Origin: Flavobacteriales bacterium | GTDB taxonomy: Bacteria > Bacteroidota > Bacteroidia > Flavobacteriales_D > Sanyastnellaceae | Length of the DNA: 64,000 nucleotides | Direction of reading: 5' to 3' | Assembly: GCA_019694805.1 (NCBI GenBank) | Contig: JAIBBG010000002.1 | Span: 62,001 to 126,000, forward strand | Shown: positions 52,481-59,574 of the stretch, piece after piece | How the letters are laid out: each line of letters starts with the position of its first letter | Position numbering within the stretch: the stretch's first letter is position 1 | Notes under the pieces: generated by a model | Told to the model about the DNA's origin: nothing | The model's database searches: none | What the model saw: only the letters and a program-made list of their open reading frames with translations | Position numbers and translations under genes: made by a program

Positions 52481-54667
52481 TTATCTTGTAAAGAGTAATT
52501 CTCTCATCTTGGGCAAAGGCCATGATTCGTCTTCTGTTATCATTTCAAGTTTATCAGAAGCTTCGCGAACTTGATCCATCAAAGGTTTGATCTTATGGCA
52601 ATAAGCGTCTGCTTGTTTTTCCAGATCAAGTTTTGCTGCTTTTTCGCGTTCCGCATTCATTTTATCAGCAGCCATTTTCATCTCGTTGAGGAATTCTGAA
52701 ATGTTTTTGATAAGATCAACCTGTGTTTTGGACAGATTTTTTGCATCAGCAGGCGACAGCACTTCTTTGAGTCCGATCACGTTATCGATCAACTTTGTCT
52801 GATAATCTATGACGGCCGGAATAATGTGATTGATGGCGAGATCAGAAGTTATTCGCGCTTCAATTTCACGCTTGCGGATATATGTTTCAACCTCAATTTC
52901 GTAACGTGCATGTACTTCCTCATGGGTCAATACATTCAATGATTCAAACATTTTCTGAACGTTTTTATCCTTCCAGACCTTCAGTGCGCTTGGCGTATCC
53001 TTTAGGTTGCTCAAACCGCGTTTTGCTGCTTCTTTCACCCATTCGTCACCATAACCATTTCCTTCGAAACGAATAGCCTTGCTCATTTTGATGAGGCGCT
53101 GAAGTTCTTTGAGAATGGCTTCGTCCTTGTCATCACCTTTTGCAATTCTCGCATCAACATCTTTCTTGAACTGGATCAAACGATTGGCAACGATGGTATT
53201 CAACACAATCATCGCATTGGCGCAGTTGGCACTGCTTCCAACAGCTCGGAACTCAAATTTATTTCCAGTGAAAGCGAATGGAGATGTCCTGTTTCTGTCT
53301 GTATTATCGAGAAGCGCTTGTGGTAGTTTACCAATGTTGAGTTTCAGATCTGTCTTGTCTTCCGGAGTCATTTTGCCCGCCTTAATGTTTTTCTCCAAAT
53401 CATCGAGCATGCTGCTGAGGTGGCCACCAAGGAATGTTGACATGATTGCAGGAGGCGCTTCATTAGCACCTAAACGATGGTCGTTACCCACGCTGGCAAT
53501 TGATGCACGGAGAACGTCTGCATTTTCATAAATCGCTGCAACAGTATTCACAAAGAAGGTGAGGAACTGAAGATTTGTCTTTGGGTTTTTACCAGGTTTA
53601 AGCAAGTTGACACCTGTATTCGTGCTCAGTGCCCAGTTATTGTGTTTACCACTTCCGTTGATTCCTTCGAATGGTTTTTCATGCAATAGAATTCGGAAGT
53701 TGTGTTTGCGCGCTGTTTTTTCTAAAACATCCATCACCAATTGGTTGTGGTCATTGGCAAGGTTGGCTTCTTCAAACATTGGGGCGAGCTCAAACTGATT
53801 CGGCGCTACCTCATTATGTCGTGTGGTTACAGGGATTCCAAGAAGGTGTGATTCATTTTCGAAATCCTGCATAAAAGCCATCACACGTTCTGGAATACTG
53901 CCGAAATAATGGTCTTCCAATTGCTGACCTTTAGCTGGACGCGCTCCAAAGAGAGCACGGCCCGTCATAGCAATGTCCGGACGTGCGTTATACAATGAAC
54001 TATCAATAAGGAAATACTCCTGTTCCCAACCAAGAGTTACACTCACTTTGTTCACATCCTTATCGAAGTATTGACATACAGCGGTTGCAGCCTGATCTAC
54101 TACATGCAATGCTTTGAGCAAAGGCATTTTATAGTCCAGTGCATGGCCGGTATAAGAAATGAAAATGGTAGGTATACACAGAGTATTACCAACAATAAAA
54201 GCAGGCGATGTAGGATCCCACAAAGTATATCCGCGTGCTTCGAAAGTATTTCTCAATCCACCTGATGGAAACGATGAGGCATCAGGTTCCTGCTGCACAA
54301 GCATACTTCCATCGAATTTTTCCAATGCACGTCCATCACTCAGCGGTTTGAAAAAACTGTCGTGTTTTTCTGCTGTACTTCCTGTAAGAGGTTGAAACCA
54401 GTGAGTGTAGTGCGTTACACCTTTTTGAATTGACCATTCTTTCATAGCAGCCGCTACGTGGTCCGCAGTTTGTCGGTCGATTCTGGTTCCTGTTTCAATG
54501 CATTCCATGAGTTTGTTGTAAGCATCTTCGGTGAGGTGTTCTCGCATTTTGAAATAATGGAAAACATTGGCTCCAAAGAATTCGCTGATGCGTTCGCCAT
54601 GAGACTCCACTTTGACAGGTTGGCGCTGATGGAGTTCTGAAAGTGCCTGAAATCTTGTACTGGACAT
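52481..54667 (-). CDS. glnN: Glutamine synthetase, type III
   Basis: Makes glutamine from glutamate, ammonia and ATP. The 728 residues match the GSIII class, which is much longer than GSI and common in Bacteroidota. Recognisable blocks are FFGANVFHYFKMREHL at the N-terminus, GWEQEYFLID (active-site Glu), RHNEVAPNQFELAP, the ATP-site NGSGKHNNWAL and NRTSPFAFTGNKFEFRAVGSS. Regulation is probably transcriptional in response to nitrogen, but no operator is recognisable. The start ATG 54667 fits the family; the frame opens earlier at 54754 across a poly-G tract without similarity. Confidence 0.95.
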   Translation of the reverse strand: MSSTRFQALSELHQRQPVKVESHGERISEFFGANVFHYFKMREHLTEDAYNKLMECIETGTRIDRQTADHVAAAMKEWSIQKGVTHYTHWFQPLTGSTAEKHDSFFKPLSDGRALEKFDGSMLVQQEPDASSFPSGGLRNTFEARGYTLWDPTSPAFIVGNTLCIPTIFISYTGHALDYKMPLLKALHVVDQAATAVCQYFDKDVNKVSVTLGWEQEYFLIDSSLYNARPDIAMTGRALFGARPAKGQQLEDHYFGSIPERVMAFMQDFENESHLLGIPVTTRHNEVAPNQFELAPMFEEANLANDHNQLVMDVLEKTARKHNFRILLHEKPFEGINGSGKHNNWALSTNTGVNLLKPGKNPKTNLQFLTFFVNTVAAIYENADVLRASIASVGNDHRLGANEAPPAIMSTFLGGHLSSMLDDLEKNIKAGKMTPEDKTDLKLNIGKLPQALLDNTDRNRTSPFAFTGNKFEFRAVGSSANCANAMIVLNTIVANRLIQFKKDVDARIAKGDDKDEAILKELQRLIKMSKAIRFEGNGYGDEWVKEAAKRGLSNLKDTPSALKVWKDKNVQKMFESLNVLTHEEVHARYEIEVETYIRKREIEARITSDLAINHIIPAVIDYQTKLIDNVIGLKEVLSPADAKNLSKTQVDLIKNISEFLNEMKMAADKMNAEREKAAKLDLEKQADAYCHKIKPLMDQVREASDKLEMITEDESWPLPKMRELLFTR

Positions 54668-54686
54668 GTGTTTTGGGATAAAATTT

Positions 54687-54760
54687 GTTTTTTTTGGTTC
54701 TGGACCCCCATTTTTAAGGGGGGGGAACTTCCAAAAAGGAAATAATTTTGGCAAATGTAA
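54687..54760. other. Homopolymer-rich spacer with a G8 run
   Basis: Between the divergent glnN and S9-like genes there is a T8 run, CCCCC (54705-54709), ATTTTTAA, an eight-G run (54718-54725), and an A-rich segment. The C and G runs can pair across an 8-nt loop. In a Bacteroidota intergenic region this is a candidate site for slippage, but no gene frame crosses it. Confidence 0.5.
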
Positions 54761-54845
54761 AAAAAATATGGGGGTAAGGATTGAAAAAAATAATTTTTTG
54801 GAATTTTACTGCATTGGAAGAGTCAAATTGATTTGTTGTTGGAAG

Positions 54846-54879
54846 TTTGAAAAACTATGCTCAACTTTAGTTATGTTCG
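54846..54879 (+). promoter_or_regulatory. Possible promoter of the S9-like gene
   Basis: TTTG (54846-54849) and TATGTTCG (54872-54879), with a 22-nt spacer, slightly longer than ideal and with one -7 mismatch. It ends 21 nt before the ATG at 54900. Confidence 0.5.
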
Positions 54880-54899
54880 CGTTCCATTTTAAGATTCAC

Positions 54900-56867
54900 A
54901 TGAAGAAGATTTGTAATTTGAAAATTGTTACCCTGGTTGCTTGGATGATGTTGGGCACTGTGTTAGGTAATAGTCAGGAAAAACCTGTTCAAAAGGATGC
55001 TGATTTGATTAAAGCGGAAAATGAAAAATTTGGACCGAGACTTGATCCATTGAAATATTTCAATCTAGAATTAGTCAGCCATTGTCAACTTTCTCCTGAT
55101 GGTTCGAAGCTGGCATATGTAGTTTCAAAGGGTGAAGAATTCAAGCTCTATAAAAAAAATGTGACAGACGGAGAGCCTGTGCTTATAACCGAATTTTCTT
55201 CAATTTCAAAGGTTGAACTGAGATGGCTAAATGACAGCTTTCTTGCTTTTAAGTCGACAGAACGCAATCAATCACGGGCTAACATATTTTTCTTGAATAT
55301 CGAGAACCCAAAGAGGATAATTCCTTTGGCAAAACCGGGTCAAATGGTTGATTGGGTCAATGGGATCAAGCCACATCCTGAACATTTCTATTTTGCATTG
55401 GATAATAACTTAGATAACTCACCCGACCTCATGATTTATCAACTCAAAACCGATCAAGCAGTCATGAAGATTGAAAATCCGGGCTATGTGTTTCAATGGA
55501 TTATCAACAACAAAGGTGAGCTCGCTGGAGTGATGACATGTGAAGATGGGCGCAGGAAATTGCATAAAGAAATAACTAAGAAAAATTTTGAAGGTGGACT
55601 GTCAATTGAAATCCAAATTATGGATGATTTAAGGCCTATAGGCGTAACTGCTGATGACCAGCGCTTAATATGTCTTTCAAACTTGAATAGGGAGAATATG
55701 GCGCTTGTCGAGGTGGACTTAGCTTCTATGACTGAAAAGACAGTTTTGTATACGGCTGCGAATATGGATGTTTTGGATTGTTATTTCTCTAATGTGCTTG
55801 GTAAACCAATATGTGCTTTTTATGGACCAGGTCAGCCTAATACAGAAATTTTGGACGACCAATGCAAAAAGGCGTTCACCGCAGCAAAGCAAAAATTAAA
55901 TAAGGAGGATCATGTTGAAATCGTAAGCGCGAATGCTTCAGGTTCAATTGTTGTATTCAAAGTTTCGAGTCCAAAGTTTCCTACCGAATTTTATGTATAC
56001 AATGCACAATCCAATAAACTCGACGCAATTCATCGGCCAGTTCTGAGAGAAAGTGTTGAAAAAACGATTGTCAACAGGGAAATCGATATTAAATCCAGAA
56101 ATGGGTACTTGTTGAAGGGTTATATATCAAGTCCACCATCATCGCAAACAGTAATTGGTTTAGTCGTCTTGGTTGGTGATTTACCTTTTGAAAGAGTTTC
56201 TCTTGAATACAATCCGATTGTAAATTACCTATGTGCTCATGGATTGATGGTACTACAGGTGGATCATGTTGGCGTTTCGGGTTATGGTAAAAAATTTAAG
56301 GCAAGTGGTTATGGTGAATTGGACGGTAAAATGATAGATGATTTTGTAGATGCTGTCCAGGCTTGTAAAAGTCAGCAATTGTACAATGGAAGAAAAGTCG
56401 GAATAGTTGGTCGCGGATATGGAGGACACGCGGCCTTGCTTTGCATGTTAAAGTATTCAGATGTATTCTCCGTATATGCTTGCGAATCGGGTATCATGAC
56501 CATATCCAATTATGCAGAACATATGGTGAAAGGAACGCAGGAATGCAAAAATATAATCAATAGGTACTATTCAAATGATGCCATCCCTTCGAATGGAGAT
56601 TTGTTCTCGGCATTTCTCGCGTTGGATTTGGAAAACGGGTTAGATGAGCGTTTATTGATGGGCATTACATCTGAGTTTGAAATGTTTGACTCAGAAGAAG
56701 CGTTAAATATTGCAACCATTTGTGAACAAAAAAATGTTGGGGTGAATGTTCTAGAAATGGGTATCTCAACAACACAGGATAAAAAAAAGGTTACGCAAAT
56801 GGATTATTACAAAAAGATGATTGATGTGCTCAAGTTGGGTCTTTTGACGTCTAGATCTGAAAAGTAA
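54900..56867 (+). CDS. S9 peptidase-like protein lacking catalytic residues
   Basis: A 655-residue exported protein with the prolyl-oligopeptidase architecture. Signal peptide about 1-22, an N-terminal propeller-like region (LSPDGSKLAYV and similar strands to about 400), then a C-terminal alpha/beta hydrolase domain. The domain shows the S9 landmarks HVGVSGYGKKFKASGYGELDGKMIDDFVDAV and VGIVGRGYGGHAALL. The nucleophile position in G-x-S-x-G-G is Gly506 (G-R-G-Y-G-G, 504-509). The expected Asp and His loops near the C-terminus are also replaced (GITSEFEMFDSEEA; ISTTQDKKKV). It should therefore not be an active serine peptidase. ATG 54900 begins a normal signal peptide; the open frame extending to 54666 does not. 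Confidence 0.82.
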   Translation: MKKICNLKIVTLVAWMMLGTVLGNSQEKPVQKDADLIKAENEKFGPRLDPLKYFNLELVSHCQLSPDGSKLAYVVSKGEEFKLYKKNVTDGEPVLITEFSSISKVELRWLNDSFLAFKSTERNQSRANIFFLNIENPKRIIPLAKPGQMVDWVNGIKPHPEHFYFALDNNLDNSPDLMIYQLKTDQAVMKIENPGYVFQWIINNKGELAGVMTCEDGRRKLHKEITKKNFEGGLSIEIQIMDDLRPIGVTADDQRLICLSNLNRENMALVEVDLASMTEKTVLYTAANMDVLDCYFSNVLGKPICAFYGPGQPNTEILDDQCKKAFTAAKQKLNKEDHVEIVSANASGSIVVFKVSSPKFPTEFYVYNAQSNKLDAIHRPVLRESVEKTIVNREIDIKSRNGYLLKGYISSPPSSQTVIGLVVLVGDLPFERVSLEYNPIVNYLCAHGLMVLQVDHVGVSGYGKKFKASGYGELDGKMIDDFVDAVQACKSQQLYNGRKVGIVGRGYGGHAALLCMLKYSDVFSVYACESGIMTISNYAEHMVKGTQECKNIINRYYSNDAIPSNGDLFSAFLALDLENGLDERLLMGITSEFEMFDSEEALNIATICEQKNVGVNVLEMGISTTQDKKKVTQMDYYKKMIDVLKLGLLTSRSEK

Positions 56868-56943: not shown

Positions 56944-57600
56944 TCAAATTTTGAAAATACCATTTTTTATGGCAAACAGCACGAGTCCTACACGAGAAGT
57001 CAAGCCTGTTTTAGCATAAACACTGTCGCGGTAGCCATCAATGGTTCGATGGCTCATTCCTACTTTTATTCCAATTTCTTTGTGACTCATGTCGCTACAG
57101 GCATATTTGATATAATCCAATTCATGAGGCGCCAATGAGGCGAGAATCCTCTGATTCCGTGATTCTTCCGACTCTTCACTCATGGTATTCATGAGTTTAC
57201 TTGAGATCATTTCTGAATGGAAAAATCCTTTTTCTGCGAGTTCGACAATTGCAGATTTTAAAGTAAAAATTTCACTGTCTTTGAGCAAATAACCCTTGGC
57301 ACCAGATCGAATCATCTTAATCACATCCATGTCAGCATCGGACATGGTTAGCGCAAGTACTTTCACCTTGGGCATATTCTGTTTGATCCATTCGGTCGCT
57401 TCAAATCCATTCATGATTGGCATATTGACATCCATAAGGACAACTTGAATGTCCGGATTTTTGGTCAATTGATCAATCAAGTCCTTCCCATTGTCTGCCT
57501 GTATCTGAATATTGAAAATATCATCAGCAAGAAGTTGCGCCAATCCTTTCCTAAATAAGAGATGATCGTCTGCAATGGCTATTTTTATTTTCGCTTTCAT
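56944..57600 (-). CDS. NarL/LuxR-type response regulator
   Basis: A 218-residue two-component regulator. The receiver domain (1-125) has the acidic pair Asp11-Asp12, the phospho-acceptor Asp57 in VLMDVNMP, and the conserved Lys in GYLLKDSE. A LuxR-type HTH follows (about 150-205, ELDYIKYACSDMSHKEIGIKVGMSHRTIDGYRD). It should activate transcription as a dimer after phosphorylation. It is the last gene of a four-gene minus-strand cluster, 21 nt after the histidine kinase. Convergent with the S9-like gene. Confidence 0.92.
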   Translation of the reverse strand: MKAKIKIAIADDHLLFRKGLAQLLADDIFNIQIQADNGKDLIDQLTKNPDIQVVLMDVNMPIMNGFEATEWIKQNMPKVKVLALTMSDADMDVIKMIRSGAKGYLLKDSEIFTLKSAIVELAEKGFFHSEMISSKLMNTMSEESEESRNQRILASLAPHELDYIKYACSDMSHKEIGIKVGMSHRTIDGYRDSVYAKTGLTSRVGLVLFAIKNGIFKI

Positions 57601-57621
57601 GATGTAGTAGTATTTGTGTAA

Positions 57622-58398
57622 TTAAACAAATGGAACTTGGAATATGAGTTCTGTTCCTGTTTGCTGAGATGAATGGATCATAAAATTTCCCTGTATCATT
57701 TTCATACGATCGCGCATGCTTCTCATGCCGAGTCCATCATCATGGCCATCGAGAAATTCAGATGGAATTCCTTTGCCATTATCCTTGACCGATACCTGGA
57801 GCATGTCTTTATTCACGCCTATCTTTATTTTCAGCACTTTGGCTTCTGCATGTTTGATACAGTTGTTGATGGCTTCCTGAATGCAACGGAAGAGTATGAC
57901 TTCATTGTTGTCGCTGATGTTTTTTTCATGAAGATCACATTCGAATTCGCATCGCAGTTTGCCCGTACCGTTGATGGCTTTAACTTCTCTTTCCAGGGAT
58001 TCTATTAATCCATTTTCACGGATAAAATTCCCATTGAGTGATTTCGATAAATGTCTGAGAACACCAATAGCACGTGTGATGATTTCGGTAGTATGAGCAG
58101 CTTGAGTTTTGTAATTTTCTTCTGATACTGACTGAATTGAAATTTTGGCGAGTGAAAGCAATTGACCAACATTATCATGAATTTCCAAGGAAATATTTTT
58201 CATGATGTCTTCACTGATTTCCAATTGAGCTTTGGTCACCTCGAAAGTTTTTTGGGCTTCGAGAAATGCTTTTTCTTTTTCATGTTCTTCCTGTCGATGT
58301 TTATACCGTATGATAAACAATACAATGAATAGACTCATGATAAAAATGAGAACAAGAACGGAAATGACTATGGTGAGTATTTCAGTTTCTGGATTCAT
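57622..58398 (-). CDS. Sensor histidine kinase (HisKA_3/NarX type), no sensory domain
   Basis: A 258-residue kinase that should phosphorylate the response regulator encoded next to it. One transmembrane helix (about 8-30) is followed by a helix, the HisKA_3 H-box LEIHDNVGQLL with the phospho-acceptor His74, and a HATPase domain (about 165-258; DNGKGIP, then GLGMRSMRDRMK). There is no periplasmic loop beyond about seven residues and no PAS or GAF domain, so sensing must come from the membrane segment or a partner. Its start overlaps the end of the upstream membrane protein gene by 17 nt, which suggests that partner. Confidence 0.9.
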   Translation of the reverse strand: MNPETEILTIVISVLVLIFIMSLFIVLFIIRYKHRQEEHEKEKAFLEAQKTFEVTKAQLEISEDIMKNISLEIHDNVGQLLSLAKISIQSVSEENYKTQAAHTTEIITRAIGVLRHLSKSLNGNFIRENGLIESLEREVKAINGTGKLRCEFECDLHEKNISDNNEVILFRCIQEAINNCIKHAEAKVLKIKIGVNKDMLQVSVKDNGKGIPSEFLDGHDDGLGMRSMRDRMKMIQGNFMIHSSQQTGTELIFQVPFV

Positions 58399-59032
58399 AT
58401 TTTAGTCTATTCGCATTGAGATAGAATGTATAGCCAATAATCGGATAATATATCAAGCACATGGTCATATTGATTCCGCCTAAAGTATTTACATTGATGT
58501 GTTTAGAGATTAAGTAATATGGAATAGTAAAGATAAAGTAGCTCGTGGAGTAATAAATAAATGTCGATGTATTAAACCAAAATACAGCATCCCGAAAAAT
58601 CGGGATGCTGTTTGGTTCATTCAAAAGATGTAAGAACAAAGTACACGCATTAATGACTACGAACAATTGAAAGATATTTATACTAATTGTAGGTAGTGTA
58701 TGAATGTCTTGTAAGAACAATGAGTTGCCAATTATTGCTATTAAGGCTATAAGAAAAAGAACCTTTAAATAATGCCACATTTTGCTGGTCTTCAAAAGCG
58801 TTCTAAAAACGAGAAAGAAAAGGGTAGTCATGACAACGCAAAATAGGTGCGCCGCAACCTGTGAATTCTCTAAGAACTGAAAGAGGAATGATTGATTTTC
58901 ATGTATGTTAATGTACACAATGATCCAAAGAATAATCTTGAACATGGCATCCAATTTCTTATATAATAAGAAACCGATTAACACGATGAAGATGTAAATT
59001 CCCGTTATGATATCAGCAATGAGGTGGAGCAT
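58382..59032 (-). CDS. Polytopic membrane protein in the two-component cassette
   Basis: A 216-residue integral membrane protein with about seven hydrophobic helices and short loops. I recognise no family. Start: TAATG, the ATG at 59032 sharing a base with the preceding stop; the in-frame opening at 59062 is less likely. It overlaps the kinase gene by 17 nt at the other end. Translational coupling on both sides indicates that the four proteins are made together. I infer that it acts as the membrane sensor or as an accessory subunit of the kinase, which has no sensor domain of its own. Confidence 0.75.
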   Translation of the reverse strand: MLHLIADIITGIYIFIVLIGFLLYKKLDAMFKIILWIIVYINIHENQSFLFQFLENSQVAAHLFCVVMTTLFFLVFRTLLKTSKMWHYLKVLFLIALIAIIGNSLFLQDIHTLPTISINIFQLFVVINACTLFLHLLNEPNSIPIFRDAVFWFNTSTFIYYSTSYFIFTIPYYLISKHINVNTLGGINMTMCLIYYPIIGYTFYLNANRLKYESRN

Positions 59033-59574
59033 TAATTTGGCAGTGGGTTTTTCGTTGGACAATAGGTTGGGCAGCCTTTTGCCAAGTCAATAACTGTATT
59101 CTCGATTGAGTTGCAATTTTGTCTCACAAAATCATTTCCCTCTTTAACCAACTGCGAAGCCATCCAAACCAAATCGTTATAAGCGGGCCGACCTTGTGGT
59201 GTTTTTAACCCGATATAAAGTTGTAGACCATCACTTTCAGGATACAACCTGAACAAATCTTCAATGATGCATCTGTCCAAGAACCATCCATTGAGTATGC
59301 CGTCACCATTTGTATTCAGGTGAGGTGTATTCGTAGTTCCTTGATATGCGCCAACCATTGATTGCGCGGTTGCCCAAGTGATGGCATGATCCCTTCGAAT
59401 CGGGCATTCTTCTTCTTGAGGCAATGCTGCTGCAGCGACCATTTCATTGTTTTTCAATTCAGGGGCCGGAGTCTCTATGCCGGCGGCAGAAGCATTTTGT
59501 GTAGTGAAGTACCATGCTGCAGAGGCAATTACCGCCCCTGCCAGACCAGAAATGATCGAACTTTGTGTGCTCAT
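59032..59574 (-). CDS. Exported or anchored Cys-containing protein, first gene of the cassette
   Basis: A 180-residue protein with an N-terminal hydrophobic segment (about 6-32) and then a soluble domain containing NGWFLDRCIIEDLF and DGLQLYIGL. This pattern, a tryptophan-containing helix followed by G-L-x-[IL]-Y-x-G-L, recurs in small uncharacterised Bacteroidota proteins, in my recollection. Five cysteines (in EECPIRR, DRCII, QNCNS and GCPTYC) suggest disulfides or metal binding in the periplasm. It may be the ligand-binding part of the signalling unit. Function unknown. Confidence 0.72.
   Translation of the reverse strand: MSTQSSIISGLAGAVIASAAWYFTTQNASAAGIETPAPELKNNEMVAAAALPQEEECPIRRDHAITWATAQSMVGAYQGTTNTPHLNTNGDGILNGWFLDRCIIEDLFRLYPESDGLQLYIGLKTPQGRPAYNDLVWMASQLVKEGNDFVRQNCNSIENTVIDLAKGCPTYCPTKNPLPN

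Follow-up and report, generated by a model that had tools for sequence, protein, structure and literature searches.

A probable exported non-peptidase homologue of S9C peptidases in a Flavobacteriales bacterium, and recurrent triad loss in a related kinase operon

The best-known dead members of the S9 peptidase family are animal proteins (DPP6, DPP10); CspC, a spore protein, has a subtilisin-like (S8) fold. The cited part of PMC4350108 describes DPP10 as an inactive S9 homologue that modulates Kv4, in which the sequence GKGYGG has Gly in place of the Ser. DPP10 (DPPY) and DPP6, which are human S9B proteins, combine a propeller with an alpha/beta-hydrolase fold and have a non-catalytic role; DPP10 is a membrane glycoprotein that keeps the His and the Asp (PMC4350108, same part). 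In Clostridioides difficile, CspC is presented as a dead protease, soluble, through which signals from the environment are detected (PMC6636752, in the part cited). Inactive homologues have been counted in five serine protease families, 42 in all, and the families named in the cited part of that work are S1, S8, S12, S14 and S16, with S9 not among the five (PMC2605481). A part of PMC4522959 that leaves Bacteroidetes unmentioned reports that the subtypes of bacterial prolyl oligopeptidase conserve the triad highly, and on that account losses would not be expected. Among the matches listed in a search of open-licence literature, no paper dealt with a dead S9 peptidase in Bacteroidota or with an operon joining an S9 protein to a kinase.

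Here we describe an S9C-like gene that has lost all three catalytic residues. It lies in a window of 64,000 nucleotides, which is the whole stretch of DNA analysed, and its features are summarized in Table 1. The frame opens at ATG 54900 and has no internal stop codon; its coding score is 0.129, versus -0.093 to 0.03 in the five other frames. A longer reading from 54666 is possible, and ATG 54900 opens an apparent signal peptide. No lipobox was seen by eye in this peptide, and export of the protein is likely, judged from the sequence.

Table 1. Features of the pseudo-S9C gene and its divergent neighbour (positions in the window).
Feature	Position	Strand	Basis or remark
Pseudo-S9C gene, 655 aa	54900..56867	+	ORF, Pfam, model, alignment
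Likely Sec signal peptide, residues 1-27	54900..54980	+	KK, hydrophobic stretch next; judged from sequence
Beta-propeller domain, approximately residues 55-380	55062..56039	+	Predicted secondary structure, fold match
Alpha/beta-hydrolase domain, approximately residues 388-655	56061..56864	+	C-terminal half eroded in sequence
Former nucleophile elbow GRGYGG, G504-R-G506-Y-G-G	56409..56426	+	Gly506 at the Ser position
Phe593 in catalytic Asp column	56676..56678	+	Alignment A3
Thr625 in catalytic His column	56772..56774	+	Alignment A3
Glutamine synthetase type III (presumed), divergent neighbour of the pseudo-S9C gene	52481..54754	-	Start taken at 54676
Upstream region common to glutamine synthetase III and the pseudo-S9C gene	54677..54899	.	

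In a 33-row alignment (A3), the Ser, Asp and His columns are occupied by G506 (codon GGA at 56415-56417), F593 and T625 in the window protein, and by S, D and H in the 25 homologues that had been chosen for bearing the triad motifs. The final His of the protein is residue 541, and both the usual His loop and the C-terminal 114 residues are devoid of His. The Ser-Asp-His triad of active S9C enzymes is thus absent, and the preliminary description, which had read Gly506 in GRGYGG at the Ser position and changed Asp and His loops, holds on these points. These substitutions all but demonstrate that S9 catalysis has been lost, and by its sequence the gene is a bacterial non-peptidase homologue of S9C. 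The same genome contains eight matches to PF00326. Besides the window protein, four of these are strong, and all four retain a Ser motif (GGSAGG, GGSNGG, GWSYGG and GWSFGG); therefore, the loss is specific to the window copy. In the window protein PF00326 matches residues 441-541 (profile positions 7-107 of 213; 61.3 bits, cut-off 22.6), and since the match is confined to this stretch, the C-terminal half of the hydrolase domain is eroded in sequence.

We predicted the fold with AlphaFold2 (pLDDT 76.6, pTM 0.80), using the 33-row alignment, which holds active S9C rows. In the model 27 strands run from residue 58 to residue 378, a number that suits seven blades, and an alpha/beta-hydrolase pattern comes next; stretches of low confidence are residues 558-576, and 622-628 around the lost His loop. 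The top Foldseek match is the acylaminoacyl peptidase 5l8s (E 5.7e-26, TM 0.68/0.73), which is also the best solved match by VIA-align (Z 27.1, rmsd 3.8, 565 residues). Because active S9C sequences were part of the input, the model leans towards the S9C fold and supports it without being an independent proof. On this model the protein likely keeps the whole S9 architecture, with a seven-bladed propeller and an alpha/beta-hydrolase domain. The earlier claim of a fold signature intact over the full length therefore stands as to the absence of stop codons and the predicted architecture, but not as to the Pfam signature, which covers residues 441-541 only.

Compared with the known systems, the window protein shares its predicted whole-length fold with S9C acylaminoacyl peptidases (5l8s, 1ve6), and it is homologous over approximately residues 50-540, at 22-26% identity, to active S9C proteins from its own family and order (L002-L006); unlike these S/D/H enzymes, it has none of the three triad residues. 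As in DPP6 and DPP10, the elbow Ser is replaced and the fold, here as predicted, is kept, and the elbows of DPP10 and the window protein, both with Gly for Ser, are nearly identical (PMC4350108, in the part cited). Unlike DPP10, the window protein is bacterial, probably exported and S9C-like, and has lost all three residues.

Homologues were present in all eight genomes of the window's genus (g1) that were examined, the window's own included, and in each of them Gly replaces the catalytic Ser while Asp and His are both missing. The preliminary description had asked whether this pattern is conserved in orthologues; in g1 it is, without exception. The seven other homologues are open frames of 593-641 codons, two of them running to the contig end. 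Full-length identity between the window protein and these counterparts is 16-20%. When genome contigs were searched with the window protein, none of the 52 pattern matches was a relative. The 60 nearest genomes yielded no close orthologue either; their five top matches, at 22-26% identity, come from outside the genus. None of the five counterparts scanned with Pfam, out of seven, and neither of the two scanned with NCBIfam passed a cut-off. This carries a warning for annotation: the triad-less window copy passes the Pfam S9 cut-off, and the five scanned counterparts pass none.

The divergent neighbour of the gene is one that we take to be glutamine synthetase III, judging from its sequence and from the features of that family. 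It adjoins the pseudo-S9C gene divergently in the window and in G001, G002, G003, G005 and G006, that is, in six of six contigs reaching it; the contigs of G004 and G007 end before this side and are not counted. On the other side lie tgt and lptF in six g1 relatives (the G001 contig ends there), and in the window this place is occupied by a convergent response regulator and kinase. Because of the position and the shared loss, we regard the g1 copies as orthologues of the window gene despite their low identity. The upstream region shared with glutamine synthetase, not with another peptidase, is the only conserved positional clue in the window lineage, and by itself this fixed divergent position weakly hints at co-regulation with nitrogen supply. 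G-runs recur in the shared region and in the matching regions of G001, G002, G003, G005 and G006; the G-run AGGGGGTGTTTT is found in three of these five relatives and is a possible regulatory site.

The same locus was followed by taking the region upstream of glutamine synthetase III from 40 genomes of the window's family, in a scan that kept the best 80 of 398. In a second genus, g20, seven of eight loci have a gene placed and oriented like the pseudo-S9C gene, 594-617 codons long and in one case cut by its contig, and the eighth locus has only about 229 bases of contig upstream. At the six loci with continuing contigs, tgt and lptF come after the pseudo-S9C gene, as in g1. The gene of a ninth genome, G069, sits on another contig; the gene is present in eight of nine g20 genomes, and the contig of the remaining one ends there. 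Seven g20 copies are complete, with elbows that read EGLGA (three), DGLGA (two) and ESLGG (one, G070) or are not recognisable (one); six of the seven lack the Ser, and the Asp and His motifs are gone from all seven, as read by eye from the alignment. A model of one g20 copy (pLDDT 68.4) has a confident propeller and a poor hydrolase half, and S9-family structures head the list of its fold matches. At 24 loci of other genera with at least 3 kb beside glutamine synthetase III, no gene matched the g1 or g20 profiles. Fifteen loci from other genera of the family (L112, L113, L115-L117, L119-L121, L123-L129) have, in its stead, an open reading frame of 1146-1240 aa upstream of glutamine synthetase III and on the same strand as it.

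Selection was estimated from 12 pairs of g1 and g20 copies, of which six were saturated and two more had dS above 2 (G006/G007, dN/dS 0.258; G068/G069, 0.07). The four unsaturated close pairs gave dN/dS (NG86) of 0.127, 0.171, 0.151 and 0.128, and in three of them the neighbours tgt and lptF gave 0.025-0.029 and 0.026-0.057. With values of five to six times those of tgt and two to six times those of lptF, the pseudo-S9C gene is constrained, yet less so than these neighbours. The dN/dS check proposed in the preliminary description thus returns purifying selection in close pairs of both genera; no measurable pair contains the window copy, for which no close relative was found, and we infer selection on that copy itself.

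In a tree that carries a warning of long branches, a branch supported at 84/80 sets the window protein and the seven g1 copies apart from the rest. In a larger tree, which omits two of the seven g20 rows (L108 and L054) and also has long branches, the window, g1 and g20 proteins group together at 80/62, and window plus g1 are not on one side of a branch.

A profile of both genera was scanned against 395 genomes from across the phylum, and no additional g1/g20-type protein turned up. The next matches, at 195 bits and below, include S9C proteins with Gly elbows from f14, a family in another order of the same class. The scan matched 37 genomes, the window's own included, and among the 31 from which sequences were read, the triad is complete, by eye, in the 22 copies that do not belong to f14. 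Of all proteins fetched, those of f14 give the highest score with the window protein (175.5 bits), followed by f28 (159.6), other active S9C proteins (139.8) and its own g1 counterparts (71.0); the last score fits a faster divergence of the g1 sequences. The f14 proteins, nearest to the window protein among the sequences fetched, share with it the replacement of Ser by Gly, which is recurrent in f14. They differ from it in that ten aligned copies have a lipobox-like Cys, the Asp is mostly kept, and the gene precedes a kinase, whereas the window lineage adjoins glutamine synthetase III.

An S9C homologue occurs in 100 of the 101 genomes searched in f14's order. We read 50 f14 copies, a non-random sample of the 30 best scoring and 20 hand-picked from the lower part of the 100-genome list. 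The Ser position holds Gly in 38, Arg in three and Ser in nine; the His is kept in eight of the 50, the Asp in 48 and all three residues in five (G656, G709, G644, G696 and G366), while 45 are without Ser and/or His. On a tree of 49 copies, from which G721 was left out for its split gene, at least eight changes of the Ser state and five of the His state are needed, some of which may be regains. The G721 gene (L279) is split into two open reading frames of 500 and 176 aa, possibly a real pseudogene or an assembly error. Six close f14 pairs gave dN/dS of 0.023-0.062 (NG86; one pair with dS 3.6) for the S9C gene, like the adjacent kinase; constraint on the gene is strong.

This kinase, a histidine kinase, is encoded immediately after the S9C gene and in the same direction at 48 of the 50 f14 loci (L249-L278, L280-L285, L287-L298), and a response regulator follows it in all 15 larger loci (L299-L313). 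Pfam found HisKA and HATPase_c in all five kinases run, and a receiver domain with Trans_reg_C, the OmpR type, in all four regulators run. Thirteen of the 15 larger loci also have a divergent open reading frame of about 600 aa, with TPR by Pfam in the one scanned. The arrangement is common to the five intact-triad copies and the dead ones. Since intact and dead versions stand in the same operon, binding or sensing is suggested as what is kept, and the simplest reading is that the retained task of the f14 protein is linked with the kinase and can be done without catalysis.

With intact triads in five of the 50 copies, the losses seen in f14 arose inside that family, separately from that of the window lineage, unless triads were regained; for the same reason, a single dead ancestor of both was considered and is unlikely. 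The larger tree favours no particular branching order.

The f14 kinase-regulator pair was not seen downstream of the S9C gene at 13 loci outside f14, and a profile of the f14 kinase matched none of the kinases of these loci save that of G383, weakly (105 bits). Three of the 13 loci have other two-component genes beside a triad-bearing S9C gene, and so has the window beside its own copy, possibly by chance since such systems are common. In G589 (L317) the S9C gene is followed, on its own strand, by genes for a propeller-type sensor kinase and two response regulators; in G507 (L319) it is preceded by a LytTR regulator; and in G383 (L321) a convergent OmpR-type regulator-kinase pair lies beside it. 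At L323:6952-7440 a 163-aa fragment resembles the nearby full-length active S9C protein of G050, perhaps a partial duplication. With the sensor half of the f14 kinase as query, in a search run without a positive control, none of the eight window-genus genomes gave a match, so by gene content the sensing idea does not carry over to the window genus.

The window gene has no same-strand kinase downstream, and convergent genes lie there instead. Positions 56944-59062 on the minus strand hold a NarL/LuxR-type regulator, a short histidine kinase and a 226-aa open reading frame without a Pfam match. We considered this regulator and kinase (56944-58398) as the f14 pair and rejected them: the regulator is of the NarL/LuxR type versus the OmpR type in f14, both genes are on the opposite strand, and relatives with contigs long enough to cover this position do not have the pair there.

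We consider it probable that the window gene encodes an exported protein of the S9C fold which does not cut in the S9 manner and has been retained, still folded, for binding in place of catalysis. The selected non-enzymatic role that had been proposed at the outset draws support from the shared loss and from the constraint in close pairs, and as regards the window copy itself it depends on the selection inferred above. A gene in decay, with catalysis lost, constraint relaxed and a frame that is simply unbroken so far, is unlikely. The low identity (16-20%) to the g1 counterparts and a PF00326 match to half of the hydrolase profile would fit slow relaxation, as fast divergence and a half-length domain; the coding score also lies below the 0.187-0.237 of three other window genes (which themselves helped to train the score), one g20 copy has no elbow, and the hydrolase half of the modelled g20 copy has low confidence. 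However, the window copy and all complete copies from both genera have an open frame, the gene is retained throughout g1 and in g20 wherever contigs reach it (eight of eight and eight of nine genomes), and dN/dS stays at 0.13-0.17 in the four unsaturated pairs. Orthologues with intact triads, combined with relaxed selection on this copy, had been named as what would point to decay; the g1 and g20 copies are dead as well, and their close pairs are constrained.

That the protein is still an enzyme, by another mechanism or with moved residues, is very improbable: the predicted persistence of the fold and two-domain layout and the presence of His510 and His541 after the elbow would allow it, but the elbow residue is Gly in all eight g1 copies, the last 114 residues are free of His, and the columns invariant in all eight g1 proteins include neither His nor Cys. 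We also find it quite unlikely that the protein acts on one of the cell's active S9 peptidases by regulating or titrating it, a role that the preliminary description had suggested. The genome does encode four S9 proteins with the Ser motif, yet these (open frames of 739, 730, 760 and 762 aa) look like other S9 types, to which we presumptively assign them by motif and length, and all four genes are on contigs other than that of the window gene. Precedent for such a role exists in dead homologues that modulate other proteins (DPP10; PMC4350108, in the part cited).

Returning to the reading of a non-catalytic binding protein, we hypothesize that the cavity between propeller and hydrolase domain may still serve, in the periplasm, as a binding site for a peptide or for another protein, because the fold is predicted to be kept and because DPP10 and CspC offer precedents. 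The output would be a regulatory or binding function in place of hydrolysis. In f14, the S9C protein would deliver a signal to the adjacent histidine kinase; in the window lineage, the position beside glutamine synthetase III may point to co-regulation with nitrogen supply. The role proposed for the window and f14 proteins resembles that of CspC, a dead protease fold serving signal detection (PMC6636752, in the part cited).

More tentatively, we speculate that one S9C lineage of Bacteroidota may have given up its enzymatic role repeatedly and taken on binding or sensing outside the cytoplasm, in most cases through replacement of the nucleophile Ser by Gly. In one order it would have become the signal-input subunit of an adjacent kinase, and the window protein would be a separate, further diverged end point tied to glutamine synthetase. 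The repeated loss beside a kinase is a more surprising result than the window gene itself. The f14 family is a replicated natural experiment, in which intact, half-dead and dead versions of orthologues precede the same kinase at the same operon position, and this series makes what remains after the loss of catalysis directly testable.
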